Below are positions 21,070 through 64,000 of a stretch of DNA of 64,000 nucleotides, one piece after another. The DNA lies in NCBI GenBank assembly GCA_036365515.1, contig CM070874.1, positions 167,957,297-168,021,296 of the forward strand, read 5' to 3'. Below the pieces are notes generated by a model. The model saw only the letters and a list, made by a program, of their open reading frames with translations, ran no database searches and had not been told where the DNA came from. Both the position numbers and the translations under genes were made by a program. Within the stretch, counting starts at the first letter, position 1, and the number at the start of each line of letters is the position of its first letter. Origin of the DNA: Torymus aiolomorphi. Taxonomy: Eukaryota > Arthropoda > Insecta > Hymenoptera > Torymidae.

Positions 21070-22643
21070 AAGGGGTTCATGTACCTAAAATATGTCAAAA
21101 AATAATTTTTTTTTTTTTATTTGATTTTTCAATTATATCTGTTATCCTGAACCTAAAAAAGTTTTGTTCATAAATAAGAAAAAAATTTGAATGTTCGTTA
21201 TAGCTCAAGAAGATAGACACCAATAAAAAGACGAAAAATTTGATTTTCTTTTATTATCTATTTAACGTTAAAGTAACCCACGTTTTAATTTGAAAACTAA
21301 TGGATTAGTTTTTGACCGTAAATATTGACCACTTTACTCGAAATTGACCAGTCAATTTTGATAGCAGTGTACTCTCTTTTTTGTTCCATAACCATAAACT
21401 ATAAGTAATACCTACACATAACAGACTGCTAGCATCAATGTAAACACAGCTGACATCACATAAGCACTGTGATTTTGAACTTCTTTATACAGTATTTCTC
21501 GATGAATTTTAAATTTTTTGCACTCTTGAGTTGATTCGAAAGTAAAGATTCACTATATTATATTTAAAAGTACATCTAATAATTAGTTTGTGAAAGTGTT
21601 TAATACAAGTGGATAGTGAGTGTTTTGTTAAAGTTATAATGTAACTTCAAAATGGGATCGTAGTCTTAGCAGTCTCTATGAATAAAAATTTATTTATATT
21701 AAGATTCAGTTTAATTGAAAAAAGAGAAATACATGTGAGCGAAAGAAAATAAAAACAACAACCTTGGTCAGAAAGTTTTAAAACAGATCACCAATTCTAA
21801 CTCGCTATGATAAAATTAAGTTTACATTTCCTGAATCAGTAATGAATTATTGTAATATCCACCAGATACCTATAGATTTCATATAATACGCCAAAGATAA
21901 TAGTGAAGTAATGATTTCAGAAAATGGACCTACCGCTAATTTATAAATATATTGTACTATTATAAGCTTTGATTGAGATTTTGGATTCGACAAAATGAAA
22001 GATTTTTGTTGTAGAATATTCTACGTTCATCTTACAATTAGTATTTTACTTAATAGTATATTTGATTGCAATGTTTTGGAAAGTCATTTAAGAGTAAGGT
22101 TGGATAAGAAGCCCAAGAGTTCGCATTGCTGTGATATCAAGTTTAAAGGTATGCAAGCCAAGGTGCCAGTATTGTTAATCACCTTTTATAGGGGAACAGA
22201 TCTCAATCTAAGGTAAATGTTTTTCTGATTTATATTGCAATATTATCAATTAAAAATCTGGAGTCAATTTTTGCTTAATTGTTCTCCTTGATTTCAGTTA
22301 CAGAGAATCAGTTAATATTCTATTTGTAAAAAAAAAAAATCTTACTTTAACTGAGTTTCAAAAGATATCTTATAAATAGTAAGATAATTCTGCCACTACT
22401 GTATTTGGCAGAGTTTCATTAATTGTTACAGGTTATTATGTATGAGTTTAGAACGGGTAAGCAATATACTTATTGTAAAATTACATTATATTTAACTATA
22501 AAAACTTATTTTTTATGTTTCAGGAAGGAGAAAAAAATTGGAAACTAGATGGCTCAATATTTTTCAAGTTTTACTGAATTTCCATTTCAAATTTTTTATA
22601 AAATATTGTTTTTAAGACTTTCGCGTAGCTTTTAAAAACAAGT
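21070..22643. mobile_element. older TTAA-site (Kolobok-like) element, left part
   Basis: If BEL and one AAGGG copy are removed, TTAA at 12994-12997 is followed by GGGG and TTCATGTACCT, resembling the GGGGGTCGGACACC start of the element at 16255. The interior near 21440-21620 (AATGTAAACACAGCTGACAT and following) matches the interior of that element near 17180-17340. A 73-residue open frame (21995-22216) with several Cys is unassigned; a transposase remnant is possible but not shown. The element continues past gypsy A at 39991. Confidence 0.6.
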
Positions 22644-23693
22644 TGTAACGCTCTGCTGAGGATCAGGACAGAGGTACGCGGGTTGATCACAGAAATACTT
22701 TAGCTTGACTATAACAATCAAGTTTATTAAGTTCGAATTATCTACAATAACTACTGGGCCACGCCAGGTGCACGCGTCACTTGCACCAGTTTCTTCTCTC
22801 GCGCGGCTAGCATAGCCGAGAGCGCAGAAACCCTACTCTATTACTACAACTACAGCTCCAGCTCGAGCTGCAGCTACGCGAGCTCGGAGTTCACGACTCC
22901 CGACGCGAAGGCGCACACACAAATCACAGGGGGAACGCGGGGAAGGAAAATTGTGCGACAAACCTTGGCCAGGCTTGTTGCTGCTGCGACAGCTTCCTCT
23001 AGAGACATGCTCTCGTCCTCTCCGATGTAGCGTCCTCCGACCACGGTTTCTCGTCGGCGAGGCCACGCAACTTCCAGGCACACTTCCGAGCACTAGCAGT
23101 CACGCGAGCACGCGGCACGGCGGTAAGCAACCGAATGTCTTTTCTGTGTCGGCCGGTCTCGCGCACGCTGCTCCGTTCCGCCGGCTAGTTCGCCGATCGG
23201 CCGTCTTCTTCACCGCGGCGCGAGCGAGCAGTCCCTTGTGGCTGCCGATGCTCGCACGCGCCGTGTGTGTCGGGCGGCCGCGGCAGTGCTGTGCAGCAGT
23301 GTCTCTCTCTATCTCGCTCTCGCTCCCTCTTTCTCTCTTGGCGTCGGCTGCTGCTGTCAGCCGCATGGGAGAGCGCGACTGCTTAGCCCGCTGATGCTAC
23401 AGTTCCAGCTCTCTCCTCGGCCTGCCCATCTCAATGCTCGCTGTTGCTGTTAGTGTGCTGTACATTTCCTCTTCCTCGACGTAGCTGCCGTTGCTCTCGC
23501 TTTCTTCGCTCCAGCTGCTAAGTGAGGAACGACGGGAGAAAAGGGGCGAGGGATCGTGTGCGGAGCAGGGGATGGGACTCGGGCGCGCGTATGTGTGTGT
23601 GCGAACGTTACCGCGCGTCGAGGCGTCGCTCGCCGTGGCCGCCGTGCCTATTTCCCTTCCGCGTTTAAGTGACATGCAATTTGCCGTGTCACA
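22644..23693 (-). repeat. gypsy A 3' LTR
   Basis: On the minus strand it starts TGTGACACGGCAAATTGC at 23693 and ends GAGCGTTACA at 22644. It is 1050 bp against 974 bp for the 5' copy. The difference is mainly in two places, a GCGAAGGCGCACAC-containing segment near 22880-22915 and a segment near 23098-23122 absent from the other copy. Long LTRs with CT-rich tracts. Confidence 0.88.
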
Positions 23694-23712
23694 ACTCCCC
23701 CCTCCTAAACTC
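23694..23712 (-). promoter_or_regulatory. gypsy A polypurine tract
   Basis: On the minus strand TTTAGGAGGGGGGAGT runs directly into the TGTGACAC start of the 3' LTR. Confidence 0.8.
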
Positions 23713-27054: not shown

Positions 27055-27769
27055 TGTAACGTACCTAAGTAATGACATCTCTCAGATTTTAATCTATACC
27101 TTAATAATTGAGTCAACTTGTATGAAACTAGATGTCGTTACTTGGTAGTTATTAACAATTTTTTAAGAGTTCGTGTACTGGACTCGAGCATACAATCGGG
27201 ATGGGAGTAGCCCCGATCTCAGGGTTAGATACCGGCGCGCAATGTGCCGGAGTCCGTGTCGTCGATACAGAGAGGTGGTAGGTGCAGGTAAGTCGTTAGC
27301 GCTGAGTCGCTGCGACCGTGCTGCTTAGGTGATACGGGTAAGTAGTCGGCGTAGAGGGCCAACTACCGTGCCGTGTGAGAAGAGAGGAGCCGGGTAAATA
27401 GTCGACGCAGAGGGCCGACTATCGTGCCGTGGGAGGTGGTGCGGGTGGAGACCAGTCTGGTGACAACGGGCTCAATGGGCGCGGCACATACCTCATGCGG
27501 CGTGCAATCTGCCGCAGCTTTAAAAAGTCCTCGATCGGCGGTCGGCGAATCGGCGTTGGCACGTATTGTTTTAATTCATGCCGAGAGGTAGATGGAGTTG
27601 GTGGTGGTGGCGTTTCCTCGCTCTCCCTAGTGGTTTGGACGGACCGGCTGACCATATGTGGCCTCGCCTGTACCGCTCGTCCGCCCCGGTATGCGCCGCG
27701 GGTTGGAGCCCAGGGTCTCCCTGACGCCGCCTTTACTGCTACGCACTCTATATTAAAGGGTGGCCATAT
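27055..27769 (-). repeat. gypsy B 3' LTR
   Basis: The U5 end (27055, ...GGTACGTTACA on the minus strand) is certain. Positions 27055-27640 match 33313-33913 with few differences, including a ~15-bp insertion in the other copy near 33390. The U3 start is inferred at about 27769, where the minus strand reads AAAGTGGAAGGG (a likely polypurine tract) followed by TGATATGG. That outer ~130 bp has no counterpart in the 5' LTR. Confidence 0.7.
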
Positions 27770-27964: not shown

Positions 27965-28534
27965 TTAAAAATAAGGCTTTAGATTTTGTACATGGAACTT
28001 TCCGCGTTCCCTATTTGCTTCTATATCTAACAATACATACGTATCGGGCCCGATTTTTTGCGTAATCGTGTATGGTCCCTCGTATACGTGAAAAAACTTC
28101 GCGATCTTTCTTTCAGCCGCATCTGACACGTTTAGTGATTTCACTAAAACTCTATCGCCTACCTTAAACTCAAAGTGTCGCGTTCGGACGTTTTTTCGGA
28201 ACGCTTGCCTCTTTAAGAATGAATGTGCTCGTTCGCGAGCGAGAAACACTTTTCGTTCATGCGTGATTTTATCTGAATCTACTATAGGCAACCACTTTTC
28301 CGATACCCGCGTAGGCTTGATATTAAAATGGAGCTCCATCGGTGTAAACCCCGTGGTCTCATGATGCGTTACGTTAATAATGTTTTGTATAATCTCAACG
28401 TATCTAGCCCAGCTGGTATGTCGGTCCCTTACGAATGTTCGGAAAAAACGCCCGAGTTCTCGATGTACCCGTTCGACCGGGTTACTTTGTGGGTGTCTGA
28501 TGGAGGAGAATACCGGTTGTATTCCTTTATCCAT
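27965..28534 (-). pseudogene. gypsy B integrase C-terminal half, out of frame with the main pol frame
   Basis: It reads MDKGIQPVFSSIRHPQSNPV with the catalytic Glu in the ERVHRELG block, then the C-terminal domain FKVGDRVLVKSLN, IAKFFHVYEGPYTITQ and FHVQNLKPYF. It overlaps the end of the upstream pol frame by a few bases. The break lies in a run of nine A on the minus strand (near 28541-28549), so a single-base slippage explains the frame change. A sequencing or assembly error in the homopolymer is also possible. Confidence 0.85.
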
Positions 28535-31292
28535 GAGTTTTTTTTTCCCATTTACTTGAAGTAAACTGCGTCCCGTGGTCAGAAAGTATTGCTTTCAGTT
28601 TACCGTATTTGCCAATGTAATCACCGAAGATTTTTCTGATCACCGTCGCGGTGTTCGCTTTTTTTATAGGATACATGACCACGTACTTACTGAATACGTC
28701 TACCGTAGTTAAGAGGTATTTAACGCCCCCCTTTGACGTTGGTAAAGGCCCAAAAAAATCTATTGACAGTGTGTCATTTGGTTCTTCGGTTAATATTGGT
28801 TGGACGTGTTCATTAAGTTTGTATGTTAAATATTTCGTTCGTTGACAAGTATCGCATGTACGAAGTATTGTATAAATTTTTTGTCTTAGTTTCGGCGCAG
28901 AGAAATGTTCGTTTATCATTTTATAAATCTTTGACGAACCAATGTGGCCATGTATCTCATGGGCTTCCCGTATCAAACTATCCAGAAGGCTTTCGGGCAA
29001 CATGAGTCTATTATGATTTAATGCAATTTTTCGCATTAAACCATCTTTGAGCACAAAGCGCTTTTGCATTTTTTCGTCATTTGGAATCTCCGTAATTAAT
29101 TTATTGATATAAGGGTCATTTTCCTGTAATGTCTTCAAATTCTTTAAGTTATTCATCAATTCGCGACTCGGTTTTTGCGCGAGTATCGAAGCGATTATGA
29201 TTTCATTTTCCCGACCCGATTCCTCTGGATAGTCGTGTATCTGACGGCTTAGGTAATCGGCGACGGCGTTCTTGCGTCCCGGCAAGTATACCGGTTCTAA
29301 GCAGAAGTCTTGGATCGCGAGACTCCACCTTCGTAATCTAGCATTATTAAATTTACAATGTTTAAGAAAAGTGAGAGCTTCGTGATCGGTTCGTACGACT
29401 ATTTTCGGTGCCCCCCGTAAGTACGTATCTAAACGTGTTAACGTCCAAACTATAGCTAACATCTCTTTCTCAGTCGTAAAGTAAGAGCATTCACTCCCCT
29501 TCAGCGTACGGCTAACGAACGTGACAATTTGTTCTTCGTTTTGATCGTTTACCTGCGATAGCACCGCAGCTATCGCGTAGTCGCTCGCGTCGGTAGTGAG
29601 TATGAATGGACGTTGTGGGTCCGCGTATTTTAATATGATATGCTCATCGAATATATTTTTAATATCATTGAAAGCTTTTTCGTGCTCGTCTGTCCATTCA
29701 TACTTCTTACCTTGTTTTAACAAGTTTAGAAGCGGAACGGTATGCGCCGAGTAATTTCTCGCGAATTTTGTATAGAAACTAACAAACCCGAGAAATTCCT
29801 GCAATTCCCTGACATTTCTAGGTTTCTTAAAGTTTTTAATTGTTCTAATTTTCTCCGGGTCCGGTTTTACTCCTTCAGGCGTTAAAACATGACCCAGGAA
29901 TTTTATTTCTTCCTGTACTAGCTTTGATTTTTTAAAACTAATCCTTAGGTTGTTTTTTAATAAATTCTCAAATAATGATTTTATATTTTGTAAATGACTA
30001 TCGAAATCTTCTGAAATACATAGTAAGTCGTCTACAAAAGTTATAAGAAAATCTTCGAGTCCCGCAACGGCTAGGTCTAGACCTCTTATTAGCGCGGCGC
30101 TACTCGTTTTTATACCGAATGGTACTACATTAAATTCGTAAACTTTATTGTCGCAGATGAACGCGGTATATTTCCTACTTTCTTCTGAAAGTTTTATTTG
30201 ATGGAAACTACTCGTTAAATCAAAGCTGGATAAAAAGTTTACGTTTCTACATCTTAAAAATATCTCCTCTACACCCGGAGGGGATTCATAATCATTTATC
30301 AATTTTTCGTTTAGTTTGCGTGCATCTAAGCATAGGCGGATTGATCCGTCTTTTTTTATCACAACCACGAGAGGGTTTATATATGGACTCGTTGAACGCC
30401 GAATTATTCCAAGCTCTTGCCATTTGTCGATTTCGATTTTAACTTTATCTCTATAATTTATAGGGATGGGATACGGCTTTGAATAAAAGGGTACATCATC
30501 TTTTATTTTAAAAGTATACTCATAGTTAGATAATAGACCTGGGCATTTCTGAAATACCTCTTTGTATTGTACTATTAAGCACTTAAGTTTATCCCTTTGG
30601 GAATTTTTTAGATTTTTGCATGATTTAACCTTTTCTTCGATTTCTTCTATCGAAACTTCGTAAGAAAGATCGTAAGCAATGAGATCATCGTATGAGTCAG
30701 CGTTTCCGCATTCGGACTCATACGATCGTTCGATTCTAAGAGACGCATACTCTTCTGAGTACATTATGGCCTCCTTATAAGAACAATGAATATATTGATC
30801 GTTAATGGTTAAGAGAATTTCTTCCTTGCCGGTATCTATTAGCATACTAAGAGCCTTTTGCGTATCATATCCAATAATGCATGGTTTGACCAGTTTCGGC
30901 ACTACTATAAATATAATATCTAGTTTTATTTTTGCAATTTCGACATTTAGAAGAACTTGGAGTTTTATTCGCGACGACTTTGCGCCCGTTGCTCCCTTTA
31001 TGAATTTTCCACTTATCGGTAGCTTAGGTCGCATCCCGAATATTTTCGCATTAGCGTAGTAAAATTCCTCGGAGATGCAAGTGATCTCACTTCCCGTATC
31101 AATTAGGGCTTTTACCTCTATGTCTTCGACTTTGATATTTACCTCCGGACAACGCGTTTCTTTCGTATTTAGACCTTTTGGTTCTACATCATACAAAAGA
31201 TTTTCTCGCGGGTCCTCCAGTATAGAAGAGATATCTTTATTACAATTTTTATTCTCCGATCGAGTTGCTTGTTGCGGTTTATTTTTTGACAT
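28527..31292 (-). CDS. gypsy B pol: protease, reverse transcriptase, RNase H, integrase (N-part)
   Basis: A 921-residue open frame. Protease motif ALIDTGSEITCIS is at about residues 60-72. The reverse transcriptase shows SSFDLTSSFHQI and the active site FVDDLLCISE at about residues 420-429, then FLGHVLTPEGVKPDPEK. RNase H shows LTTDASDYAIAAVLSQ, FTTEKEMLAIVW and RTDHEAL. The zinc domain of integrase (HEIHGHIG, CDTCQRTK) and the Asp residues in IDFFGPLP and SDHGTQF follow, all intact, before the homopolymer frameshift. It starts just after the gag stop in another frame, so expression probably needs ribosomal frameshifting. This is the best preserved polymerase gene in the window. Confidence 0.9.
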   Translation of the reverse strand: MSKNKPQQATRSENKNCNKDISSILEDPRENLLYDVEPKGLNTKETRCPEVNIKVEDIEVKALIDTGSEITCISEEFYYANAKIFGMRPKLPISGKFIKGATGAKSSRIKLQVLLNVEIAKIKLDIIFIVVPKLVKPCIIGYDTQKALSMLIDTGKEEILLTINDQYIHCSYKEAIMYSEEYASLRIERSYESECGNADSYDDLIAYDLSYEVSIEEIEEKVKSCKNLKNSQRDKLKCLIVQYKEVFQKCPGLLSNYEYTFKIKDDVPFYSKPYPIPINYRDKVKIEIDKWQELGIIRRSTSPYINPLVVVIKKDGSIRLCLDARKLNEKLINDYESPPGVEEIFLRCRNVNFLSSFDLTSSFHQIKLSEESRKYTAFICDNKVYEFNVVPFGIKTSSAALIRGLDLAVAGLEDFLITFVDDLLCISEDFDSHLQNIKSLFENLLKNNLRISFKKSKLVQEEIKFLGHVLTPEGVKPDPEKIRTIKNFKKPRNVRELQEFLGFVSFYTKFARNYSAHTVPLLNLLKQGKKYEWTDEHEKAFNDIKNIFDEHIILKYADPQRPFILTTDASDYAIAAVLSQVNDQNEEQIVTFVSRTLKGSECSYFTTEKEMLAIVWTLTRLDTYLRGAPKIVVRTDHEALTFLKHCKFNNARLRRWSLAIQDFCLEPVYLPGRKNAVADYLSRQIHDYPEESGRENEIIIASILAQKPSRELMNNLKNLKTLQENDPYINKLITEIPNDEKMQKRFVLKDGLMRKIALNHNRLMLPESLLDSLIREAHEIHGHIGSSKIYKMINEHFSAPKLRQKIYTILRTCDTCQRTKYLTYKLNEHVQPILTEEPNDTLSIDFFGPLPTSKGGVKYLLTTVDVFSKYVVMYPIKKANTATVIRKIFGDYIGKYGKLKAILSDHGTQFTSSKWEKKTHG

Positions 31293-31306
31293 GCAGCAAG
31301 CAGCTG

Positions 31307-32686
31307 TTATGCGTTTCCCGAGTTTTCGGTATTAGCATTTCCTAAATTTATATTATTTACGTCAACCTCGTCGTAACTTCGGATTAATTCTTTGTTCCGT
31401 TCGTTTTTCTGCTTCCGAGCTGACTTTTTCTCGTTTGTTTGATTCGTTTGTGGTGGCGTTTTCTCCTTTATCTCCGGCGGCGTCGCTGTCTGTAACTCGT
31501 TTACGTTCACGGTTTTCGACTGCCAATGGGATGGCTTGTTATATGATTTATTTTGTATGTTAGCCGTATCTGAAGGAGGACTGGGTTTGTTGTGGCCCAT
31601 TTTGTCGTGTTTTCGGTGACGTTGGTCGTCTCCGTCATAATCAGCTAATATTTTTAACAACATATTTTTATCTTTGACTTGCCGTCCTAAAACCGCGTGT
31701 CGAATATTTCTTTCGAAATGTTCGCTAACGCGCACAACAAACTCAGTCTCCGTATAGTCGAGATCCAGCTCTTTGCCTAAACCGAACAAATTTGTTGCGT
31801 ATTCAACACGATTAAGACTGCCCCCCAGCTGGTGCTGACCGAATTCTATCTTCCGCTTCGCGGTTCTTTGTGTGTTCGCGCTCCAGTACCGTTCGCGAAA
31901 CCGTTCTGTGAATTGGTCGTACGAGTCGATCTCCGACTCTTGTAGGAACCACCAATCCCTGGCATCACCCTCGAGTGCTTGAGAGATAAGGCATAAGAGT
32001 TGATCGAAATTAGGTTTAACTATGTTTATATATTTCTCGAACTCTGATAAGAATTTAACTGGCCTTTCATTCTCAAGTCCTCGATACTTGGGGATGTCTA
32101 ACTAAATTTTTTGAGATGCTTCGCTCTCAGAATTGCCTTTCTTCATCGGTGATTTTTTTAAGTCTTTAATCGTATTTTTCAATTCTAGAATTTCTTTCTC
32201 AAAGTTTGATTTTATTTGATCAACTTCTCGTGAAAGGTTTCTTTTCAACTCTGCGAGCCTAGAATCTAGCTCGCTTTGTGACAGCGCGGATATTTTGTCG
32301 ATTAGACTGTCGTTCTCGGTTTCTAATAACTGAACCCGACCTCTTAGTTTATTTATTTCGGTAACTAATTCCGCGCGTTCTGCTTTTTTTTCCATACGAG
32401 TTCTCTCGACTGACTGTGTTAACGCGTCATATTTCTCTTTTATCTCATTTCGAATTATCGCGACTAACGTTGCCCTTAATTTTGGTGATTTCGACGTGTC
32501 ATTTTCCTCGTCTTGGCCTTCGAGCATATTTTCGAGCTCATTTTGCCGTTCATCCAATAATCGTAATTCATCAGTTACCGCCCGTTCCCATTTGAAACGT
32601 TTTTGTTCCTTCGCGTTCTCTACTCCCTCGTCAAAGGAGTCTTGTATTTCGCGTATAAACGCTCCCGATTTGCGGTCTTTTGCCAT
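31307..32686 (-). pseudogene. gypsy B gag with one in-frame TAG
   Basis: I chose the Met at 32686 (MAKDRKSGAF) because the residues before it look untranslated; the frame is open from 32776. A long, highly charged coiled coil (about 32600-32140) ends with a TAG at 32102-32104. The same frame continues at once into a capsid-like region (LDIPKYRGLENERPVKFL, DARDWWFLQ, QFTERFRERYW) and a Lys/Gln-rich tail ending at 31307. No zinc knuckle is visible. The TAG is either a nonsense mutation or a readthrough point between two gag products. Gag would form the particle that holds the element RNA. Confidence 0.75.
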
Positions 32687-33312: not shown

Positions 33313-33913
33313 TGTAACGTACCTAAGTAATGACATCTCTCAGATTTTAATCTATACCTTAATAATTGAGTCAACTTGTATGAAACTAGTATGAACTAGT
33401 AGAATGTCGTTACTTGGTAGTTATTAACAATTTTTTAAGAGTTCGTGTACTGGACTCGAGCATACAATCGGGATGGGAGTAGCCCCGATCTCAGGCTTAG
33501 ATACCGGCGCGCAATGTGCCGGAGTCCGTGCCGTCGATACAGAGAGGTGGTAGGTGCAAGTAAGTCGTTAGCGCTGAGTGGCTGCGACCGTGCTGCTTAG
33601 GTGATACGGGTAAGTAGTCGGCGCAGAGGGCCAACTACCGTGCCGTGTGAGAAGAGAGGAGCCGGGTAAATAGTCAGCGCAGAGGGCTGACTATCGTGCC
33701 GTAGGAGGTGGTGCGGGTGGAGACCAGTCTGGTGACAACGGGCTCAATGGGCGCGGCACATACCTCTTGCGGCGTGCAATCTGCCGCAGCTTTAAAAAGT
33801 CCTCGATCGGCGGTCGGCGAATCGGCGTTGGCACGTATTGTTTTAATTCATGCCGAGAGGTAGATGGAGTTGGTGGTGGTGGCGTTTCCTCGCTCTCCCT
33901 GGTGGTTTGGACG
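33313..33913 (-). repeat. gypsy B 5' LTR (U5-proximal part)
   Basis: It matches 27055-27640 closely. Its inner end abuts the primer-binding site. Its outer part diverges abruptly at 33914, where the U3 start should follow, and is replaced by unrelated sequence plus an inverted copy of the U5 end. Confidence 0.85.
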
Positions 33914-34121
33914 CACTTGTGTCCGAGCTCTCGCCTATTCAGGATACCGATAAGCATTGCGCTTAGGTAACTGAAGCTGGCCACTCCTTTGCGCTCGTAA
34001 AAACTTATGTCAAATAATTCATTTTGAGTATATTAATAAACATACCTATAATTCTAGATTTTGATTAATGATTTTTTTCTTCTTCAAATAAACTCTCTCG
34101 ATAACAACCGAATCCTAAGCT
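33914..34121. other. 208-bp stretch of unknown origin between the two LTR-end copies
   Basis: It has no counterpart in the 3' LTR. On the minus strand a frame reads FDISFYERKGVASFSYLSAM and then LIGILNRRELGHK, with AT-rich sequence upstream that could be intronic. A captured piece of a host transcript is possible. I cannot identify it. Confidence 0.4.
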
Positions 34122-34508
34122 ACCTACCTCCCACGGCACGATAGTCGGCCCTCTGCGCCGACTATTTACCCGGCTCCTCTCTTCTCACACGGCACGGTAG
34201 TTGGCCCTCTGCGCCGACTACTTACCCGTATCACCTAAGCAGCACGGTCGCAGCCAGTCAGCGCTAACGACTTACCTGCACCTACCACCTCTCTGTATCG
34301 ACGGCACGGACTCCGGCACATTGCGCGCCGGTATCTAACCCTGAGATCGGGGCTACTCCCATCCCGATTGTATGCTCGAGTCCAGTACACGAACTCTTAA
34401 AAAATTGTTAATAACTACCAAGTAACGACATCTAGTTTCATACAAGTTGACTCAATTATTAAGGTATAGATTAAAATCTGAGAGATGTCATTACTTCGGT
34501 ACGTTACA
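34122..34508 (+). repeat. inverted copy of the gypsy B U5 LTR end
   Basis: 387 bp are the reverse complement of the U5-terminal part of the LTR (compare 27055-27435 and 33313-33710). It ends GGTACGTTACA at 34508 directly against the AATT duplication. Confidence 0.9.
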
Positions 34509-34512
34509 AATT

Positions 34513-35813
34513 ATGTCATCTAAATACGCGAAGACATACGGCTCCCACGCAGCTTTGATGAGGTTGTCCATGATACGCTGGAATACTGCTGGAGCGTTCG
34601 TCAGTCCGTACGGTAGTCGGATGAAGTGGAAAAGTCCTCGCCCTGGTACTAAGAATGCGGTGACCTCTCGACACTTCGGATCCAACGGAATCTGGTGATA
34701 CGCTTGACTTAAATCTAACTTAGAAATATACTTGGCAGAACTTAACTTATCAAGTATCTCATCCATATTTCGCAATGGATACGCGATAGACTTAGTATGC
34801 TTATTAACTTGCCTATAGTCTATGCAAAATCGGAACAAATCATACAATTTTGGAACTAGCACAGGGCAGCTTCGCCAGGGGCTATCAGATGGCTCGATAA
34901 TTCCCTCCTCCAGCATTCTATCGACTTCAGCCCAAGCCGTCTGCAACAACTTCGAAGTATACTTCCGAGGAGCTTGGCGAATGGGTTCATTTTCTTGAAT
35001 GTCAATGAAATGCGGGGCGACTTTAGCTAGCCCTAGTTTGTCCGGTGTTGGTGGAATTAGTTCCTTCTTGATAGCGTCGATTTTGACTTGCTGTTCAGCT
35101 GTAGCACGGCTCAGTCCTCCTATGCTAGCTAGAGCGGGAAAACTGGTTGGATCTTGGCCGTAAGGGTAAAACTGATGAACTACTCCCTTCGGCGTCCACC
35201 AGGTGTCATTCTCGTAATCAATCTTCATCTTAAACAATCGTTTGAAGTCAATTCCGAGAATGCAGTCATATTGAAGCTCGTCGGCTATGCAGAAAGGCAT
35301 AGTTACATGCGTATTATCGCTCATGTTCAATACGCCTTGCAGTTTCACTGCACCTCCGTCAACTATTCGTACTGACGCTGCTTCCTGCTCCAGCTTCCCG
35401 GCGAACTCTTTGCTGGCGCCTTTGCCAAGGTACGAATGAACCGATCCATCATCGAGCATGCTCAATAATTTTCTTCCATTCAATTCTATGTTGAAAAATA
35501 ATCGGGGCTCAATGTTGCTTACAGCACTTCTTATAATCAGCGATTCTGGAGCTAAAACTTGAGGGTTGTCTCCCTCGCTCATCGCTGCCGCTGGACTGTT
35601 TTCTGGGATACTAGCGATCGTATCAGAAGTGGGAGGAGTCGAATCTGAAGTAGGAGGGGGTGAGCTGACTCCACTAACTTCCCCTCTTACCCGTTTCCCG
35701 CCGACACAGAGTTGCACTTGGTACATCTTCGCGCAGTCGTGTTCGGTTCTCCACAATTTTGACAGACTGCTGCATTCATGCACTCTCTCCTCCAGTGGCC
35801 GGCTTGACCGCAA
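34513..35813 (-). pseudogene. gypsy A protease and reverse transcriptase N-part, cut by element B
   Basis: The frame overlaps the end of gag by about 125 bases. It shows the protease region with LSMLDDGSVHSYLG (Asp-Asp-Gly in place of the usual Asp-Thr/Ser-Gly) and the RT blocks IIEPSDSPWRSCPVLV, FRFCIDYRQVNKHTK, SKLDLSQAYHQIPLD, FIRLPYGLTNAP and the active-site segment AYLDDII, where the element B junction interrupts it. The partner half is 26166-27050. The halves were one gene before the insertion. Confidence 0.85.
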
Positions 35814-38172: not shown

Positions 38173-39012
38173 CGTACTCTCTCTCTCAGTTAGCCTCGGT
38201 CACTTAGCTCCCCCCCCCCCCCCCCCAATTTCTTTCTTATCAAATACTACGTATAAATTTTTAATTTAAATACAACAGTTGTATTTACATACTCTTAACC
38301 CGAAATACAACTAATTTGTAGCAGAATAAATTATTCTAAAACTAAAAATGCTATTAGCAAGAAAAAGCAAAAGCAAGCAAAAATCAAAAAAAAGAAATCA
38401 AGCCAAGCAACCTAACTACTAACGAGAGATTAGGTGCGACAATTACACACCTGCTCCTCGCAACGAAATCAAAATCCGAAAGCAATCCGAAGAAAATTCC
38501 CTTCCCCGTTTCTATTAAACTCTTGTAACGGAGAAGTGGGAATTTGGGAAAGGTTATGTGAAGGATAGTAAGCGAGAATTCTCTTAAGCCAATACCGTAA
38601 AAGGTTTAATCATAAAAACCCAAAAAAAACTGATTCGGTAGCATTAATGCCCAGGAAGTTAACTTAATTTCAAATGGCTTCCTGAACACTCTGCTATTAC
38701 ACGCCGCGTGGCTTAAGCTGTAGCAAGATGTGATTTTGCGAATATCTCATTCACTCTTAATCGCAAAATCACGCACAAATCGCAATATTTCAACCACAAA
38801 AAATTTTTATAATGATAAATTATTATTCCAATGATAAATAATTAAATTGAAACGTCTGCCTAAACGCGGTAATTTATAAAACGCAAAATGGCTGCCAGAA
38901 CGCTTCTTCCTCGCGGTTTCCGGTTGTGTGCGCGCCGCGATGGCGATTATCACGACGCAGATCCCTTAACTATGCCACGGTTTTACCGTGGCCCCACATT
39001 GGCTGCGCCACT
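38173..39012 (-). other. gypsy A leader with primer-binding site and C tract
   Basis: Non-coding, AT-rich in the middle, with an 18-base C run at 38209-38226. Next to the LTR the minus strand reads TGGCGCAGCCAATGTGG (39010-38994), the expected place and start (TGGCG) for a primer-binding site. The matching tRNA is not certain. Confidence 0.6.
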
Positions 39013-39986
39013 TCTAACGCTCTGCTGGGGATCAGGACAGAGGTACGCGGGTTGATTACAGAAATACTTTAGCTTGAATATAACAATCAAGTTTATTAAG
39101 TTCGAATTATCTACAATAACTACTGGGCGCCAGGTGCACGCGTCACTTGCACCAGTTTCTTCTCTCGCGCGGCTAGCGTAGCCGAGAGCGCAGAAACCCT
39201 ACTCCATTACTACAACTACAGCTCCAGCTCGAGCTCGAGCTGGAGCACACACAAATCACACGGGGAACGCGGGGAAGGAAAATTGTGGGACAAACCTTGG
39301 CCAGGGTTGTTGCTGCTGCGATAGCTTCCTCTAGAGACACGTTCTCGTCCTCTCCGATGTAGCGTCCTCTCGACCACGGTTACTCGTCGGCGAGGCCACG
39401 CAACTTCCAGGCACACTTCCGAGCACTAGCAACCGAATGTCTTTTCTGTGTCGGCCGGTCTCGCGCAGGCTGCTCCGTTCCGCCGGCTAGTTCGCCGATC
39501 GGCCGTCTTCTTCACCGCAGCGCGAGCGAGCAGTCCCTTGTGGCTGCCGATGCTCGCACGCGCCGTGTGTGTCGGCGGCCGCGGCACTGCTATGCAGCAG
39601 TGTCTCTCGCTCCCTCTCTCTCTCTCCTGGCGTCGGCTACTGCTGTCAGTCGCATGGAAGAGCGCGACTGCTTAGCCCGCTGATGCTACAGCTCCAGCTC
39701 CCTCTCTCCTCGGCCTGCCCATCTCAATGCTCGCTGTTGCTGTTCGTGTGCTGTACATTTCCTCTTCCTCGACGTAGCTGCCGTTGCTCTCGCTTTCTTC
39801 GCTCCAGCTGCTAAGTGAGGAAGGACGGGAGAAAAGGGGCGAGGGATCCTGTGCGGAGCAGGAGATGGGACTCGGGCGCGCGTATGTATGTGTGCGAATG
39901 TTAACGCGCGTCGAGGCGTCGCTCGCCGTGGCCGTCGTGCCTATTTCCCTTCCGCGTTTAAGTGACATGCAATTTGCCGTGTCACA
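39013..39986 (-). repeat. gypsy A 5' LTR
   Basis: Minus strand TGTGACACGGC at 39986 to GCGTTAGA at 39013. It matches 22644-23693 apart from substitutions and two deletions. The inner terminus has C where the 3' copy has G (TCTAACG against TGTAACG on the plus strand). Confidence 0.88.
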
Positions 39987-39990
39987 AAGT

Positions 39991-41515: not shown

Positions 41516-41801
<286 letters not shown>

Positions 41802-55790: not shown

Positions 55791-56047
55791 ACATGAGTAT
55801 ATTTTCATTTTAACTGCACGAATGTTTGTATGCATAATAGCTGGCTTTTAAAAGCTCTGCCTAGATTAAAATTATTTTTATGGTATATTTTAATCGTTTT
55901 AGAAATCACTCCTTGATAATTATAATTTGCTTATAATTTTAGGATATTCATATTTCCGTATCTAGGCATGTCATATTATATTACATTTCTGCTTCTTCAT
56001 TAATACTTATTCTTCAGTAAATATTTTACTCATTTCTATTTATATAT
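55791..56047. other. AT-rich spacer
   Basis: No feature supported. Confidence 0.5.
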
Positions 56048-56108
56048 TTATGAATAAGCTTTTTTTTTATTTTTTTTTTTATCAATTGAAGGTCTAGAAA
56101 GGGTTGTC

Positions 56109-56180
56109 AGCCCAGTGGTGCAAATGATAGCGTAGCTGCCCGGTAAGCAGCGGGTTGTCGGTTCGACCCCGGCCTGGGCC
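56109..56180 (+). tRNA. tRNA-like module 1, complete cloverleaf (anticodon loop GGT)
   Basis: It folds as a 72-nt cloverleaf: acceptor AGCCCAG/CTGGGCC (6 of 7 pairs), D arm GTGC/GCGT, anticodon stem GCTGC/GCAGC around CCGGTAA, and T arm GTCGG-TTCGACC-CCGGC. The pol III B box GGTTCGACCCC is canonical and the A box is close to consensus. The anticodon position reads GGT (Thr), but position 33 is C instead of the near-universal T, so a working tRNA is doubtful. D arm and variable region resemble tRNA-Trp. Likely a tRNA-derived repeat head. Confidence 0.5.
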
Positions 56181-56571
56181 GTTATTTTTTCGTTCTCATT
56201 TTTTATCTTATACGATTACCTTCCCTTACCATATCATTTAAAAATTCTTGACTGCACTTTAATTATTATAATATTGTGCATAATTCTTTGACTACTATTG
56301 TGTGAAATAGCTTTAAAAAAAATTTTAAATTGGTATTTAAACACATATATAGAAAAAAAACGATTGATAAGTTAGTTGCCTTCCTTATCTATTATCTCTC
56401 GCCCTGAATAGCCGTTAGATTCACTTATTAAATTAACATAAATCGTCGGGCGTTTCCTTCAATTGATAAAATAATATTGTCTGCTTCGGCTGAAAATAAT
56501 GCAGACAGGGGGATTTGGGAAATAAAAATTGAGAACGAATAAGTAGCGGTTAGGGTCTGGAAAGGATTGTC

Positions 56572-56640
56572 AGCCCAGTGGCGCAAATGGTAGCGTAGCT
56601 GCCCGATAATCAGAATGTTGACGGTTCGACCCCGGCCTGG
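56572..56640 (+). pseudogene. tRNA-like module 2, interrupted by a MITE
   Basis: Same layout as module 1, with CCGATAATCAGAA in the anticodon region, which breaks the stem. The B box GGTTCGACCCC is kept. The acceptor 3' strand is separated by the 127-bp insertion at 56639-56765. Confidence 0.7.
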
Positions 56641-56765
56641 GGCCTGATTCTAAATGTGTCTCGGCCTCGAGACAACTGCTTTTCCTTTTAAAGGAGCTCC
56701 CTGATTGGTCTACATCTCCGGATTTGGTGTGTCTCGACGTCGAGACAAATTTAGAATCAGGCCCC
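56639..56765. mobile_element. 127-bp MITE in tRNA-like module 2
   Basis: The ends GGGGCCTGATTCTAAAT and ATTTAGAATCAGGCCCC are inverted, followed inward by GTGTCTCG / CGAGACAAA. This segment is absent from the other seven units. The exact boundary is ambiguous because host and ends share GGCC. Confidence 0.75.
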
Positions 56766-57169
56766 AGGGCCGTGATTTTTTCGTTCTCATTTTTTATCTT
56801 ATACGTTTACCTTCCCTTTCCATATCCTTTAAAAATTCTTGACTGCACTTTAATTATTATAATATTGTGCATAATTCTTTGACTACTATTTATTGTGTCA
56901 AATAGCTTTAAAAAAAAAAAATTTTTAAATTTATTTAAACACATATGTAGAAAAAAAGTGATTGATAAGTTAGTTACCTTCCTTATCTATTATCTCTCGC
57001 CCTGAATAGCCGTTAGATTCACTTATTAAATTAACATAAATCGTCGGGCGTTTTCTTCAATTGATAAAATAATATTGTCTGCTTCGGCTGAAAATAATGC
57101 AGACGGGGGGATTTTGGAAATAAAAATTGAGAACGATTAAGTAGCGGTTAGGGTCTGGAAAGGATTGTC

Positions 57170-57241
57170 AGCCCAGTAGCGCAAATGGTAGCGTAGATGC
57201 CCGATAATCAGAATATTGACGGTTCGACCCCGGACTGGGCC
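57170..57241 (+). pseudogene. tRNA-like module 3
   Basis: Anticodon region ATGCCCGATAATCAGAATATT, stem broken; B box GGTTCGACCCC kept; acceptor AGCCCAG/CTGGGCC. Identical to module 6. Confidence 0.7.
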
Positions 57242-57640
57242 GTGATTTTTTCGTTCTCATTTTTTATCTTATACGTTTACCTTCCCTTTCCATATCCTTT
57301 AAAAATTCTTGACTTCTCTTTAATTATTATAATATTGTGCACAATTCTTTAACTGCTATTTATTGTGTCGAATAGCTTGAAAAACAAAAAATTTTAAATT
57401 TGTATTTAAACACATATATAGAAAAAAAGTGATTGATAAGTTAGTCACCTTCCTTATCTATTATCTTTCACCCTGAATAGCCGTTAGATTCACTTATTAA
57501 ATTAACATAAATCATCGGGCGTTTCCTTCAATTGATAAAATAATATTGTCTGCTTCGGCTGAAAATAATGCAGACGGGGGGATTTGGGAAATAAAAATTG
57601 AGAACGAATAAGTAGCGGTTAGGGTCTGGAAAGGATTGTC

Positions 57641-57712
57641 AGCCCAGTGGCGCAAATGGTAGCGTAGCTGCCCGGTAAGCAGAAGGTTGTCGCTTCAACC
57701 CCGGCTTGGGCC
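57641..57712 (+). pseudogene. tRNA-like module 4 (anticodon loop GGT)
   Basis: The anticodon arm keeps CCGGTAA with 4 of 5 stem pairs, but the B box is changed to GCTTCAACCCC. Identical to module 7. Confidence 0.7.
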
Positions 57713-58112
57713 GTTATTTTTTCGTTCTCATTTTTTATCTTATACGTTTACCTTCCCTTTCCATATCCTTTAAAAATTCTTGACTGCACTTTAATTATTA
57801 TAATATTGTACATAATTCTTTGACTGCTATTTATTGTGTCAAATAGCTTTAAAAAAAAAAAAAATTTTAATTTGTATTTAAACACGTATATAAAAAAAAG
57901 TGATTGATAAGTTAGTTACCTTCCTTATCTATTATCTCTCGCCCTGAATAACCGTTAGATTCACTTATTAAATTAACATAAATCGTCGGGCGTTTTCTTC
58001 AATTGATAAAATAATATTGTCTGCTTCGGCTGAAAATAATGCAGACGGGGGGGATTTGGGAAATAAAAATTGAGAACGATTTAGTAGCGGTTACGGTCTG
58101 GAAAGGATTATC

Positions 58113-58184
58113 AGCCCAGTGGCGCTAATGGTAGCGTAGCTGCCCGATAATCAGAAGGTTGACGGTTCGACCCCGGCCTGGGCC
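58113..58184 (+). pseudogene. tRNA-like module 5
   Basis: D arm GCGCTAATGGTAGCGT, anticodon region with CCGATAATCAG, B box GGTTCGACCCC intact. Identical to module 8. Confidence 0.7.
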
Positions 58185-58582
58185 GTTATTTTCTCGTTCT
58201 CATTTTTTATCTTATACGTTTACCTTCCCTTTCCATATCCTTTAACAATTCTTGACTGCACTTTAATTATTATAATATTGTGCATAATTCTTTGACTACT
58301 ATTTATTGTGTCAAATAGCTTTAAAAAAAAAAAATTTTTAAATTTATTTAAACACATATGTAGAAAAAAAGTGATTGATAAGTTAGTTACCTTCCTTATC
58401 TATTATCTCTCGCCCTGAATAGCCGTTAGATTCACTTATTAAATTAACATAAATCGTCGGGCGTTTTCTTCAATTGATAAAATAATATTGTCTGCTTCGG
58501 CTGAAAATAATGCAGACGGGGGGATTTTGGAAATAAAAATTGAGAACGATTAAGTAGCGGTTAGGGTCTGGAAAGGATTGTC

Positions 58583-58654
58583 AGCCCAGTAGCGCAAATG
58601 GTAGCGTAGATGCCCGATAATCAGAATATTGACGGTTCGACCCCGGACTGGGCC
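58583..58654 (+). pseudogene. tRNA-like module 6
   Basis: Same sequence as module 3, displaced by 1413 bp. Confidence 0.7.
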
Positions 58655-59053
58655 GTGATTTTTTCGTTCTCATTTTTTATCTTATACGTTTACCTTCCCT
58701 TTCCATATCCTTTAAAAATTCTTGACTTCTCTTTAATTATTATAATATTGTGCACAATTCTTTAACTGCTATTTATTGTGTCGAATAGCTTGAAAAACAA
58801 AAAATTTTAAATTTGTATTTAAACACATATATAGAAAAAAAGTGATTGATAAGTTAGTCACCTTCCTTATCTATTATCTTTCACCCTGAATAGCCGTTAG
58901 ATTCACTTATTAAATTAACATAAATCATCGGGCGTTTCCTTCAATTGATAAAATAATATTGTCTGCTTCGGCTGAAAATAATGCAGACGGGGGGATTTGG
59001 GAAATAAAAATTGAGAACGAATAAGTAGCGGTTAGGGTCTGGAAAGGATTGTC

Positions 59054-59125
59054 AGCCCAGTGGCGCAAATGGTAGCGTAGCTGCCCGGTAAGCAGAAGGT
59101 TGTCGCTTCAACCCCGGCTTGGGCC
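59054..59125 (+). pseudogene. tRNA-like module 7
   Basis: Same sequence as module 4, displaced by 1413 bp. Confidence 0.7.
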
Positions 59126-59526
59126 GTTATTTTTTCGTTCTCATTTTTTATCTTATACGTTTACCTTCCCTTTCCATATCCTTTAAAAATTCTTGACTGC
59201 ACTTTAATTATTATAATATTGTACATAATTCTTTGACTGCTATTTATTGTGTCAAATAGCTTTAAAAAAAAAAAAAAATTTTAATTTGTATTTAAACACG
59301 TATATAAAAAAAAGTGATTGATAAGTTAGTTACCTTCCTTATCTATTATCTCTCGCCCTGAATAACCGTTAGATTCACTTATTAAATTAACATAAATCGT
59401 CGGGCGTTTTCTTCAATTGATAAAATAATATTGTCTGCTTCGGCTGAAAATAATGCAGACGGGGGGGATTTGGGAAATAAAAATTGAGAACGATTTAGTA
59501 GCGGTTACGGTCTGGAAAGGATTATC

Positions 59527-59598
59527 AGCCCAGTGGCGCTAATGGTAGCGTAGCTGCCCGATAATCAGAAGGTTGACGGTTCGACCCCGGCCTGGGCC
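59527..59598 (+). pseudogene. tRNA-like module 8
   Basis: Same sequence as module 5, displaced by 1414 bp (one extra A in a homopolymer). Confidence 0.7.
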
Positions 59599-60114
59599 GT
59601 TATTTTCTCGTTCTCATTTTTTATCTTATACGTTTACCTTCCCTTTCCATATCCTTTAACAATTCTTGACTGCACTTTAATTATTATAATATTGTGCATA
59701 ATTCTTTGCTGCTATTTATTGTGTCAAATAGCTTTAAAAAAAAAAATTTTTTTAAATTTGTATTTAAACACATATATAGAAAAAAAGTGATTGATAAGTT
59801 AGTTACCTTCCTTATCTATTATCTTTCGCCCTGAATGGCCGTTAGATTCAATTATTAAATTAACATTAATCGTCGGGCGTTTGCTTCAATTGATAAAATT
59901 ATGAATAAGCAATTATTTGAAATCTTGAAATCATGGATAAAAATAGCTAATTTCGCGGAGAAAAACATCCGTGCAAAAATAACACGAGTGAGTCTGGAGT
60001 CCGCGAGTGTATAAAAACAGATCAGTTAGTCAGTATATTTTTAGTACCCCAAATAGCAGTAGTTTACTGTAATGATCTGCGAAATTTATTTGCTTATAAT
60101 TTATTTTTAGATCA

Positions 60115-60280
60115 GATAGATAGTTGAAGCTGATGGTAGTTTTTTAATGTAGTTTGATGTGGAGATTAATGACCATACTACCAGGTAGGAAAAGAAATAG
60201 ACAAAACATTTTTTGGTTATTTCTTTTCCTACCTGGTAGTGTGGCCATTAATCTCCACATCAAACTCAAAAAAAAAAACT
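60115..60280. mobile_element. hairpin element between 12-bp direct repeats
   Basis: Inverted arms of about 65 bp share GAGTTTGATGTGGAGATTAA- and ACTACCAGGTAGGAAAAG-type blocks around a centre near 60207. ATTTTTAGATCA occurs on both sides (60103-60114 and 60281-60292), as a target duplication would. Non-coding. It lies at the left edge of the pogo-like fragment. Confidence 0.7.
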
Positions 60281-60292
60281 ATTTTTAGATCA

Positions 60293-61005
60293 TTTTCGAA
60301 AATGGTTAAGGGATGTGTTTTTTTCAAATGTTGGAAAAAACAGTTTGTTATTGCTAGATTCTTGGAGCGGACATTGCACAGAAGCAGTAAAAAGAGAAAA
60401 ACCTAGTGATAAAAACATTAAACTTTCCAAATTCTTCAAGGTACAACGGGAAAAATAGAACCACTGGATGTGGTTTGGCTTTCGTATATGGAAAAATTTT
60501 GTAAGACACTTTTCCGATAGTGTAATTTTGTTGGATAAATACATAAGTTTCCACGTACGAAATAATGCAATTAAATTACAATCTCTGGTGCACAATCAGT
60601 TATCTTCTCCTCGATACGTAAATTTGTTTAAGGTTTTTCTCCTTCAATTTTAAACTTTTTGAAAAAAATTTGACACATTTTAAGTTTAATAAAGAACTAC
60701 AACATTTCAAAGAGTTTTTTTCTTAAGATTAAAACTTGAATGAGAAAAACGGGACCCCAATTTTAAGTAATAGCGTGAGTATCGCATCACCTTAAATACT
60801 TTTGGTATAAAAGCGGCTATTTCGATAATAAACCAAATGAATTTGTAAATCCGGTGGACTTTAGCTTTGGTGGATCCCAAACTCATTCGGAGGTACCAGG
60901 ATGTAAAAATACTGCTATTATAAAATGTTCATGGTGTCAGAAACCACTGTGCTTAAAATATGTTTTTGAAGATTTTCATTACTGTTCAACCTATAATCCT
61001 TAAAC
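60293..61005 (+). pseudogene. C-terminal fragment of a second pogo-like transposase
   Basis: It begins within the core: LLLLDSWSGHC (about 60345-60377, second catalytic Asp), then GTTGKIEPLDV (about 60440-60470, third Asp), then after a frame change WFGFRIWKNFVRHFSDSVIL and LVHNQLSSPR. About 120 bp of AT-rich sequence interrupts. It then resumes (60805-61005) with WYKSGYFDNKPNEF, NPVDFSFG, CSWCQKPLC and DFHYCSTYNP, ending in TAA. This matches the C-terminal half of the transposase at 42943-44565 block by block. Only the C-terminal half remains. Confidence 0.72.
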
Positions 61006-61197
61006 AAAATTAATTGTGATAAGGAACAAACGGCAAGCTCTTTTATATATTTCGTCGAATCTTTTTTGACAATTTGCAAAAACAAATATACTTATATTTT
61101 ACTTTTCATATAAAGTAATTATACCGGGTGTCCCATTTTAAAACCACCAGGCAAATATCTCGAAAACTAAGGGAGATGGAAAAAAACTTTTAATACA

Positions 61198-61615
61198 AAA
61201 GTTGTAGGGTTCAGAGGGGCCCAATTGATCGTGACCTTGGTTATGACCTTGAGGTCAATTATCAAGGTCTTTTGAAGGTCAAATCGATTTTTTCAAATGG
61301 GAACCCCCACTTTTGACATCGTAAATGGAAAGAGCGGAAAATTTTACGTTCAGATATGTCCTTGAGTCAAGGTCATGGTCATGGTCATGGTCATGTTTAA
61401 AATCAAAATCAATCAACGCATCCAAACATTCCCATAATTACGCATACGAGTGTTAAATAAAGAAGTTGTAGGGTTTGGAGCGGCCCAACTGATCGTGACC
61501 TTGGTTATGACCTTGAGGTCAATGATCAAGGTCATTTGAAGGTCAAATCGATTTTTTCAAATGGGAACCCCTATTTTTGACCTCGTAAATGGAAAGAGCG
61601 GAAAATTTTACTATT
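61198..61615. repeat. left subterminal repeats of the DD41D element
   Basis: Two copies, starting GTTGTAGGGTTCAGAG (61198) and GTTGTAGGGTTTGGAG (about 61464). Both carry TGACCTTGAGGTCAA and GAAGGTCAAATCGATTTT; the first also has four CATGGT repeats. Confidence 0.85.
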
Positions 61616-62966: not shown

Positions 62967-63045
62967 ATGGTGACCGAAACACTTGGATCCTATGACTAAA
63001 TACACATGAACGTGGAATTTTCCAATGAATTTTTAGCTGGCCTGA

Positions 63046-63275
63046 TCATCCCCGACCTTGCCTTAACTGGCCGGGTATCTCCGACCTTGCCTTAACTGAC
63101 CGGGTCATCTTCGACCTTGCCTTAACTGGCCGGGTCATCTCCGACCTTGCCTTAACTGGCCGGGTCATCTCCGTCCTTGCCTTAACTGGCCGGGTCATCT
63201 CCGACCTTGCCTTAGCTGGCCAGGTAATCTCCGACCTTGCCTTAGGTGACCGGGTCATCTCCGACTTTGCTCTTA
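63046..63275. repeat. minisatellite, ~30-bp unit, seven to eight copies
   Basis: Unit CCGACCTTGCCTTAACTGG followed by CCGGGTCATCT, with small variants (GGTATCT, GTCCTTG, TTAGGTGACC). It sits between the transposase stop and the right subterminal repeats. A long open frame on the other strand across it is an artefact of the 30-bp period. Confidence 0.9.
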
Positions 63276-63279
63276 ACAG

Positions 63280-64000
63280 CACGGAAACTGACCATAACTT
63301 TGACCATGACCTTGACCCAAGGTCATATCAGAATTTTTCGGTTTTTCTATTTACGAGGTCAAAAGTGAGGGTTGCCGTTAAACAAAATTGATTTAACGTT
63401 CAAACGACATCATCCTTGACCTCAAGTTCATGGTCAAGGCCACGATCAGTTGGGCCCCTCCAAACACTACAACTTCTGTATTTAACACTCGTATGCGTAA
63501 TTATAGGAATGTTTGGATGCGTTGATTGATTTTGATTTTAAACATGACCATGACCATGACCATGGCCTTGACTCAAGGACATATCTAAACGTAAAATTTT
63601 CCGCTCTTTCCATTTACGAGGTCAAAAGTGGGGGTTCCCATTTGAAAAAATCGATTTGACCTTCAAATGACCTTGATCATTGACCTCAAGGTCATAACCA
63701 AGGTTACGATCAGTTGGGCCCCTCTGAACCCTACAACTTTTGTATTTAACAATTTGTCTCGTATACCTAATTATGGGAATGTTTTGATGCGTTTATTGAT
63801 TTTGATTTTAAACATGACCATGACCATGACCATGACCTTGACTCAAGGACATATCTTCACGTAAAATTTTCCGCTCTTTCCATTTACGAGGTCAAAAGTG
63901 GGGGTTCCCATTTGAAAAAATCGATTTGACCTTCAAATGAACTTGATCATTGACCTCAAGGTCATAACCAAGGTCACGATCAGTTGGGCCCCTCTGAACC
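63280..64000. repeat. right subterminal repeats of the DD41D element, cut by the window
   Basis: Inverted copies of the left subunits, starting near 63290, 63535 and 63810, each with CATGACCATGACCATG, TTACGAGGTCAAAAGTG and GATTTGACCTTCAAATGA. The terminal sequence lies beyond 64000. Confidence 0.85.

Follow-up and report, generated by a model that had tools for sequence, protein, structure and literature searches.

The window analysed here is a stretch of 64,000 nucleotides (64 kb) from Torymus aiolomorphi (Hymenoptera, Torymidae; GenBank assembly GCA_036365515.1, contig CM070874.1, positions 167,957,297 to 168,021,296 of the forward strand), and all positions given below are counted within it. 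Near its right end lies a tandem array (56060-59898) of eight units, head to tail, with a period of 471 bp and a tRNA-like module in each unit. The units are short and AT-rich (array GC about 34%). Tandem Repeats Finder (TRF) gave the row 56767-59899 with a score of 5559, and the first units were added by alignment; the eight units of about 471 bp claimed in the original prediction were thus borne out. Their limits, their lengths as cut and the positions of the modules are compiled in Table 1. Unit 2 owes its greater length to a hairpin of about 128 bp within its module. This insert (56636-56768) has 39-bp arms of 92% complementarity, resembles a miniature inverted-repeat transposable element (MITE) and lies outside the segment that was duplicated by the crossover described below. 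According to the list of open reading frames (ORFs) of the window, the array contains no stop-to-stop ORF of at least 150 amino acids. Elsewhere in the window no convincing solitary unit, flank paralogue or donor 3' end was found; the best match covered 29 bp (E 0.001, AT-rich). Exact pieces of the units gave 0 matches in viral and prokaryote contig collections, as expected from their content.

The array is bounded like a transposed unit. The 12-bp direct repeat TTATGAATAAGC is perfect, and the 64 kb contain just two copies of it, starting at 56048 and 59899 and both flush with the array. For an anchored control, 51,900 positions left of the array were taken as pseudo right boundaries with the same geometry, and such a repeat was found at one of them. 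Looser, unanchored controls yielded it in 2 of 1,960 genomic pairs and in 22 of 5,000 dinucleotide shuffles; these controls are weaker because the array ends are AT-rich. The target-site duplication (TSD) is therefore well supported, and with it the predicted nature of the array as a transposed unit.

The predicted 15-bp inverted ends were also confirmed. The right end CTTCAATTGATAAAA (59884-59898) is perfectly matched in inverted orientation at 56077-56091. None of 59,968 overlapping 41-bp segments elsewhere in the window matched the inverted right end over at least 12 bp, and an inverted match reaching 15 bp was seen in 0 of 1,960 genomic pairs and in 4 of 5,000 shuffles of the T-rich ends. 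At the left, the array does not begin with unit sequence: the TSD is followed by a T-rich run of 21 bases (56060-56080) and then by the inverted copy of the right end. In this end piece TTATCAATTGAA has its single occurrence in the window, nor does the inverted 12-mer recur elsewhere. The right end has just four A's. On the plus strand the array can be read as having two outward-facing 3' ends, each finishing with CTTCAATTGATA(A)n. The T-rich run had been predicted as the A-rich tail of the minus strand. The run is present, but it is not simply the tail of a minus-strand RNA of the array; it adjoins the inverted plus-strand right end and therefore resembles the tail of a second RNA end in a head-to-head junction.

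An 82-bp linker is present at all seven internal junctions and absent at both ends of the array. The order at each junction is CTTCAATTGATAAAA, linker, GGTCT; the last unit passes from CTTCAATTGATAAAA directly into the TSD, and the first one starts with GGTCT without a linker. Since the linker stands in all seven junctions and at neither end, the inserted molecule had at least one junction, i.e. more than one unit. Judged from the junctions, the array could not be derived from a single inserted unit by duplication alone. The only escape we see is a later import of the linkers by conversion from another array. The original prediction had offered either one insertion followed by expansion or the insertion of an already tandem molecule. 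The linker favours the latter; of the former, the later expansion in situ stands and the start from a single unit is disfavoured.

Expansion after insertion is indicated because a duplication of three units, with a period of 1,413 bp, is free of substitutions (0 over 1,461 bp). The only difference between units 4 and 7 is one base in an A-run, and the divergence among the five older units amounts to 4-8%. Unit 5 agrees with unit 8 at seven diagnostic columns up to 58246; from 58295 on it agrees with unit 2, at all fourteen diagnostic columns, gap columns being included in these counts. From this mosaic follows one exchange between units 2 and 8 within 58247-58294. According to the alignment, five units became eight through one unequal crossover between these two units. 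It may also be that the three identical units (57,148-59,898) reflect a collapsed or expanded assembly.

Each unit had been predicted to carry D, anticodon and T arms and a B box for RNA polymerase III (pol III). A covariance-model check of the eight modules was run with the Rfam tRNA model, for which the gathering score, the curated cut-off, is 29 bits. Five of the eight modules (units 1, 4, 5, 7 and 8) scored above it, and those of units 2, 3 and 6 remained below (Table 1). ARAGORN with the bacterial code called a tRNA in unit 1 only, and position 33 is a C in all eight modules (by eye). By pattern, the canonical A and B boxes were found jointly in four modules (units 1, 2, 3 and 6); the B box is lost in units 4 and 7 and the A box in units 5 and 8. 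Outside the array the pair of patterns occurred once in the window, on the minus strand. Hence the tRNA derivation of the module was upheld, but the arms, with 15-20 of 21 pairs intact, and the B box are not complete in every unit. Variable columns were more frequent in leader and module (21/95) than in the rest of the unit (41/379; Fisher p 0.006), counted on units 1, 2, 3, 4 and 8; units 5-7 were omitted as duplication products, and unit 8 is blank in the linker columns of this alignment. The GC-rich module has six CpGs within its 73 bp, and part of its excess variability may be due to CpG decay. By its covariance-model scores the module descends from a tRNA gene, and by its variability it is without sign of constraint. 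A functional tRNA gene, with intact cloverleaf and plausible anticodon loop, is not seen here, given the 15-20 of 21 pairs, the C at position 33 and the extra variability of leader and module.

In seven of the eight units a T-run stands right behind the module, T6 in units 1, 3, 4, 6 and 7 and T4 in units 5 and 8; in unit 2 the insert occupies this place. These runs probably act as pol III terminators. Because they directly follow the module, any pol III transcript should be about tRNA-sized. Regarding secondary structure, the module can be flanked by inverted arms of 28 bp, as in the example 57591-57618/57711-57738. The plus strand of 57591-57760 folds with -60 kcal/mol (z -4.75) into one long hairpin, not a cloverleaf; the minus strand reached a z of -2.23. 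A structure scan of 57550-58209 in 38 windows of 120 nt (19 per strand) gave none with z below -2. Folded alone, the modules of units 1, 4 and 5 never had a cloverleaf as minimum-energy fold.

Table 1 Features of the tandem array and its ends (positions within the 64-kb window; tRNA score from the Rfam model)
Feature	Position	Strand	Length (bp; units as cut)	tRNA score (bits)	Intact pairs of 21	Remarks
Left TSD TTATGAATAAGC	56048-56059					Exact match to 59899-59910
Left end piece	56060-56091		32			T-run 56060-56080 and inverted copy of the right end 56077-56091 (15 bp)
Unit 1	56091-56549	+	463	42.1	20	Begins within the unit at GGTCT (56091), without upstream linker; module 56109-56181
Linker, first of seven	56472-56553	+	82			Contains hairpin GTCTGC...GCAGAC (by eye)
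Unit 2	56550-57147	+	598	28.8	16	Module from 56572, interrupted by hairpin insert of about 128 bp; below cut-off
Unit 3	57148-57618	+	471	21.6	15	Module 57170-57242; below cut-off
Module within inverted arms	57591-57738	+				One long hairpin, arms 86% complementary; example unit region
Unit 4	57619-58090	+	472	38.0	18	Module 57641-57713; B box lost
Unit 5	58091-58560	+	470	34.6	17	Module 58113-58185; canonical A box lost; 5' part as unit 8, 3' part as unit 2
Unit 6	58561-59031	+	471	21.6	15	Module 58583-58655; below cut-off; 0 differences to unit 3 in 471
Unit 7	59032-59504	+	473	38.0	18	Module 59054-59126; 0 substitutions in 472 and 1 gap against unit 4
Unit 8	59505-59898	+	394	34.6	17	Module 59527-59599; stops within the unit at CTTCAATTGATAAAA
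Right inverted end CTTCAATTGATAAAA	59884-59898					Unit sequence, found in every unit
Right TSD TTATGAATAAGC	59899-59910					Exact match to 56048-56059

With a probability of roughly 0.42, we tentatively regard the array as a non-autonomous tandem retroelement of Penelope- or retrozyme-like layout, with a tRNA relic, a cDNA start on both strands and one later crossover. The RNA of the element would be the tandem multimer itself, of plus strand and with at least one unit junction. It would have been reverse-transcribed into a staggered break, leaving the 12-bp duplication, and cDNA would have started on both target strands at one RNA site, the end of CTTCAATTGATAAAA. From the right-hand start the multimer would have been copied. 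The left-hand start, on a second, A-tailed molecule, would have covered just about 15 nt of the element and would then have been joined to the first cDNA through an overlap of 2 bases (GG, by eye), resulting in the inverted end and the T-run. The growth from five to eight units by one unequal crossover would have followed insertion. The tRNA-derived module would be a relic, or would at best start pol III transcription locally; it is hardly the source of the multimer, because the T-runs come right after it. This reading is supported by the TSD (1 of 51,900 in the anchored control), the right end that stops within a unit, the left end with inverted copy and T-run, the linker that is absent at the ends only, the crossover and the T-runs behind the modules. 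While the duplicated and inverted ends, the linker distribution, the crossover, the tRNA descent and the T-runs are shown by the sequence, an RNA intermediate, its direction, the double start and the enzyme involved are what we infer from it.

Comparable behaviour was described for Penelope-like elements (PLEs); the papers named here and below are cited for single passages. A purified PLE protein acts on both target strands, cutting as well as extending them, the enzyme starts internally on its RNA with no visible strand difference, and PLEs occur in tandem (PMC11167929). Genomic PLE inserts include partial tandems, an inverted 5' pseudo-long terminal repeat (pLTR), TSDs of 8-10 bp and, optionally, a tail of about 31 bp (PMC3846280). 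In the passages cited, PLEs such as Pen2a of Adineta vaga and PAc of Anolis are thus similar to the array in the tandem or partial-tandem insert, the inverted end piece, the TSD (8-10 bp in the examples), the optional tail (30-40 bp in the examples) and the cDNA start on both strands from one internal RNA site. Tandem, inverted end piece, tail and TSD are present here in form, but the 15-bp piece and the T-run are unlike the PLE examples. Further differences are the lack of an ORF of at least 150 amino acids, the lack of a detected hammerhead and the tRNA-derived module. No ORF for a reverse transcriptase (RT) with GIY-YIG endonuclease is therefore found in the array; a non-autonomous rider would lack it. 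On this comparison, the likeness is one of layout, not of detail.

Animal retrozymes, i.e. non-LTR (long terminal repeat) retrozymes with type I hammerhead, were reported with low-GC tandem units of 150-450 bp, as dimers to multimers, and with TSDs of more than 4 bp if present (PMC7229834, in the passages cited). The array shares the short AT-rich tandem units (period 471, GC about 34%) and a TSD longer than 4 bp (12 bp). In contrast, its unit slightly exceeds 150-450 bp, and a tRNA-like module takes the place of the hammerhead. A hammerhead or other ribozyme was rejected for the array by a permissive cmscan and by core patterns: no ribozyme family matched at E up to 5 in 55900-60300 on both strands, and the hammerhead core CTGANGA was found nowhere inside the array and once left of it (56017). 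The Schistosoma W-elements are a further case of a satellite with hammerhead, and the word tRNA is absent from the passages cited (PMC8490949). Among the papers listed by a search of the open PMC literature with limited terms, none was recognised as describing a tRNA-bearing tandem element driven by Penelope. The original prediction knew no named family with this combination of features. PLEs, animal retrozymes, Helenus elements and satellites derived from short interspersed nuclear elements (SINEs) come near, and none of them fits every defining feature.

Several points weigh against the proposed retroelement. It is known from one locus only, and no PLE was recognised in a Pfam scan of ten of the 39 listed ORFs. 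The inverted piece has 15 bp, whereas it comprises almost the whole pLTR (181 bp) in the rotifer PLE; likewise, the tail is a T-run here and element sequence there, and another partial tandem among the PLEs of the same study had no TSD (PMC3846280, in the passages cited). No hammerhead or other ribozyme family was matched in the array. The T-run also fits poly(A)-driven integration by a long interspersed nuclear element (LINE) with twin priming, and insertion of a circle into a staggered break at the DNA level could yield a TSD as well. Furthermore, the results with shuffled T-rich ends (22/5,000 direct, 4/5,000 inverted) are not negligible.

The main rival, which we consider rather unlikely, is a LINE-driven event in which a tRNA-derived SINE or SINE multimer inserted with twin priming (5' inversion), which would account for TSD, T-run and inverted end, and later turned into a short satellite of SINE origin. 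Both an A-tail-like run and a TSD of 12 bp are what LINE machinery usually leaves. SINEs in tandem, with as many as eight units, and satellites of SINE origin whose terminal units are extended were reported (PMC10702118), and for salamanders a table includes a SINE-like Pol III satellite (PMC6947457). According to these passages, squamate sSats and Hy/Pol III of salamanders resemble our case in that SINE sequence became a short tandem array. They differ from it in that our array as a whole is bounded by a TSD and an inverted end, with T-runs behind the module. These runs (T4-T6 in seven of eight units) speak against a SINE, which should contain no pol III terminator, as pol III should make neither a 470-nt RNA nor a multimer. 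The right end, moreover, carries just four A's, and a convincing single copy outside the array is missing from the window.

Satellites may spread via extrachromosomal circular or rolling-circle DNA. It is conceivable, though improbable in our view, that units were excised as a multimeric DNA circle, which was captured at a staggered double-strand break. Start and end of the array are unrelated points of the unit, as a cut circle would give. Capture does not, however, predict that an inverted copy of one end stands at the other beside a T-run, and 0 of 59,968 overlapping segments elsewhere matched the inverted right end over 12 bp or more.

A terminal-repeat retrotransposon in miniature (TRIM) of Helenus type, multiplied through recombination of its tRNA-like LTRs to (LTR-internal)n, is very unlikely. 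The short repeat of Helenus (TRIMp3) includes a tRNA-like sequence with both an A and a B box, which is unable to make tRNA in many families, and the element is present in several chalcidoid wasp families (PMC10886601). The linker of the array also contains the purine-rich GGGGGGATTTGGGAAA. The reading fails at the TSD, with its 12 bp, and at the ends: the abstract gives a TSD of 4 bp in animals, the array ends with T-run/GGTCT and GATAAAA and not with TG...CA, and no primer-binding site (CA then TGG) is visible by eye in the unit alignment. In addition, the passages cited from PMC10886601 report no Helenus in Trichogrammatidae and some other chalcidoid families, and Trichogramma is among the best-scoring named matches of the Gypsy-like ORF described below.

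Least credible of the alternatives is a MITE or Mutator-like DNA transposon with 15-bp terminal inverted repeats (TIRs) and a tandemly expanded interior. The perfect inverted ends of the array do adjoin a perfect direct repeat, but the right 'TIR' recurs in every unit and the left one occurs once only, 17 bp of T-rich sequence separate the TSD from the left TIR, and a 12-bp TSD is unusual for these superfamilies. A Helitron or Helentron is ruled out by the 12-bp TSD; such elements insert without TSD.

The neighbourhood contains other repeats. Pfam recognised several retroelement pieces among ten of the 39 listed ORFs. One ORF has protease, RT, RNase H and integrase domains and is presumably Gypsy-like, one has a Pao peptidase domain and one has RVT_2, which we take to be Copia-type. 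Among the matches listed for the Gypsy-like ORF (120 of 495 proteins), seven bear an organism name; Trichogramma, Orussus and Copidosoma are the best-scoring three, followed by Cuerna, two Aphis and Nesidiocoris. The first three are Hymenoptera, the others Hemiptera. From this one transposon protein a parasitoid wasp or a relative would be guessed as the host. Direct repeats of about 600 bp (95.7%) among 27055-27644, 33313-33916 and 34126-34514 flank the Gypsy-like pol ORF (28527-31331) and may represent its LTRs; an inverted partial copy lies close by. A hairpin immediately right of the array, at 60140-60277, has 67-bp arms of 88% complementarity with 4 nt between them; its matches to microRNA precursors are under the Rfam cut-offs and probably reflect hairpin mimicry. 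Repeats with CATGAC runs lie at 61189-61611 and 63285-64000, their longest inverted pairs being 91-94% alike; the latter segment has a period of 270, and a 30-bp tandem array occupies 63033-63277. Two direct copies of a repeat of about 1 kb (22643-23694 and 39012-39987) are 88.6% alike. A pure AC microsatellite of 97 copies (41518-41801) merges into a 13-bp tandem array.

Going beyond the single locus, the array might belong to new hammerhead-less tandem retroelements mobilised by Penelope, in which a tRNA-derived module replaces the ribozyme. Their multimer RNA would be cut by tRNA-type enzymes at the module or at its 148-nt hairpin, and cDNA would be made from it on both target strands, starting at a single internal site. 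We consider this extension decidedly improbable. One widespread account of satellites is expansion in place following insertion of a single copy. Here, the ends argue for the insertion of a molecule that already had more than one unit, and its subsequent growth is readable as one crossover. If other loci share both ends, tRNA-derived repeats would be tied to Penelope or retrozyme mobility, and such loci would test whether cDNA begun on both strands at a single internal RNA site generally gives rise to 'inverted end plus tail' structures.

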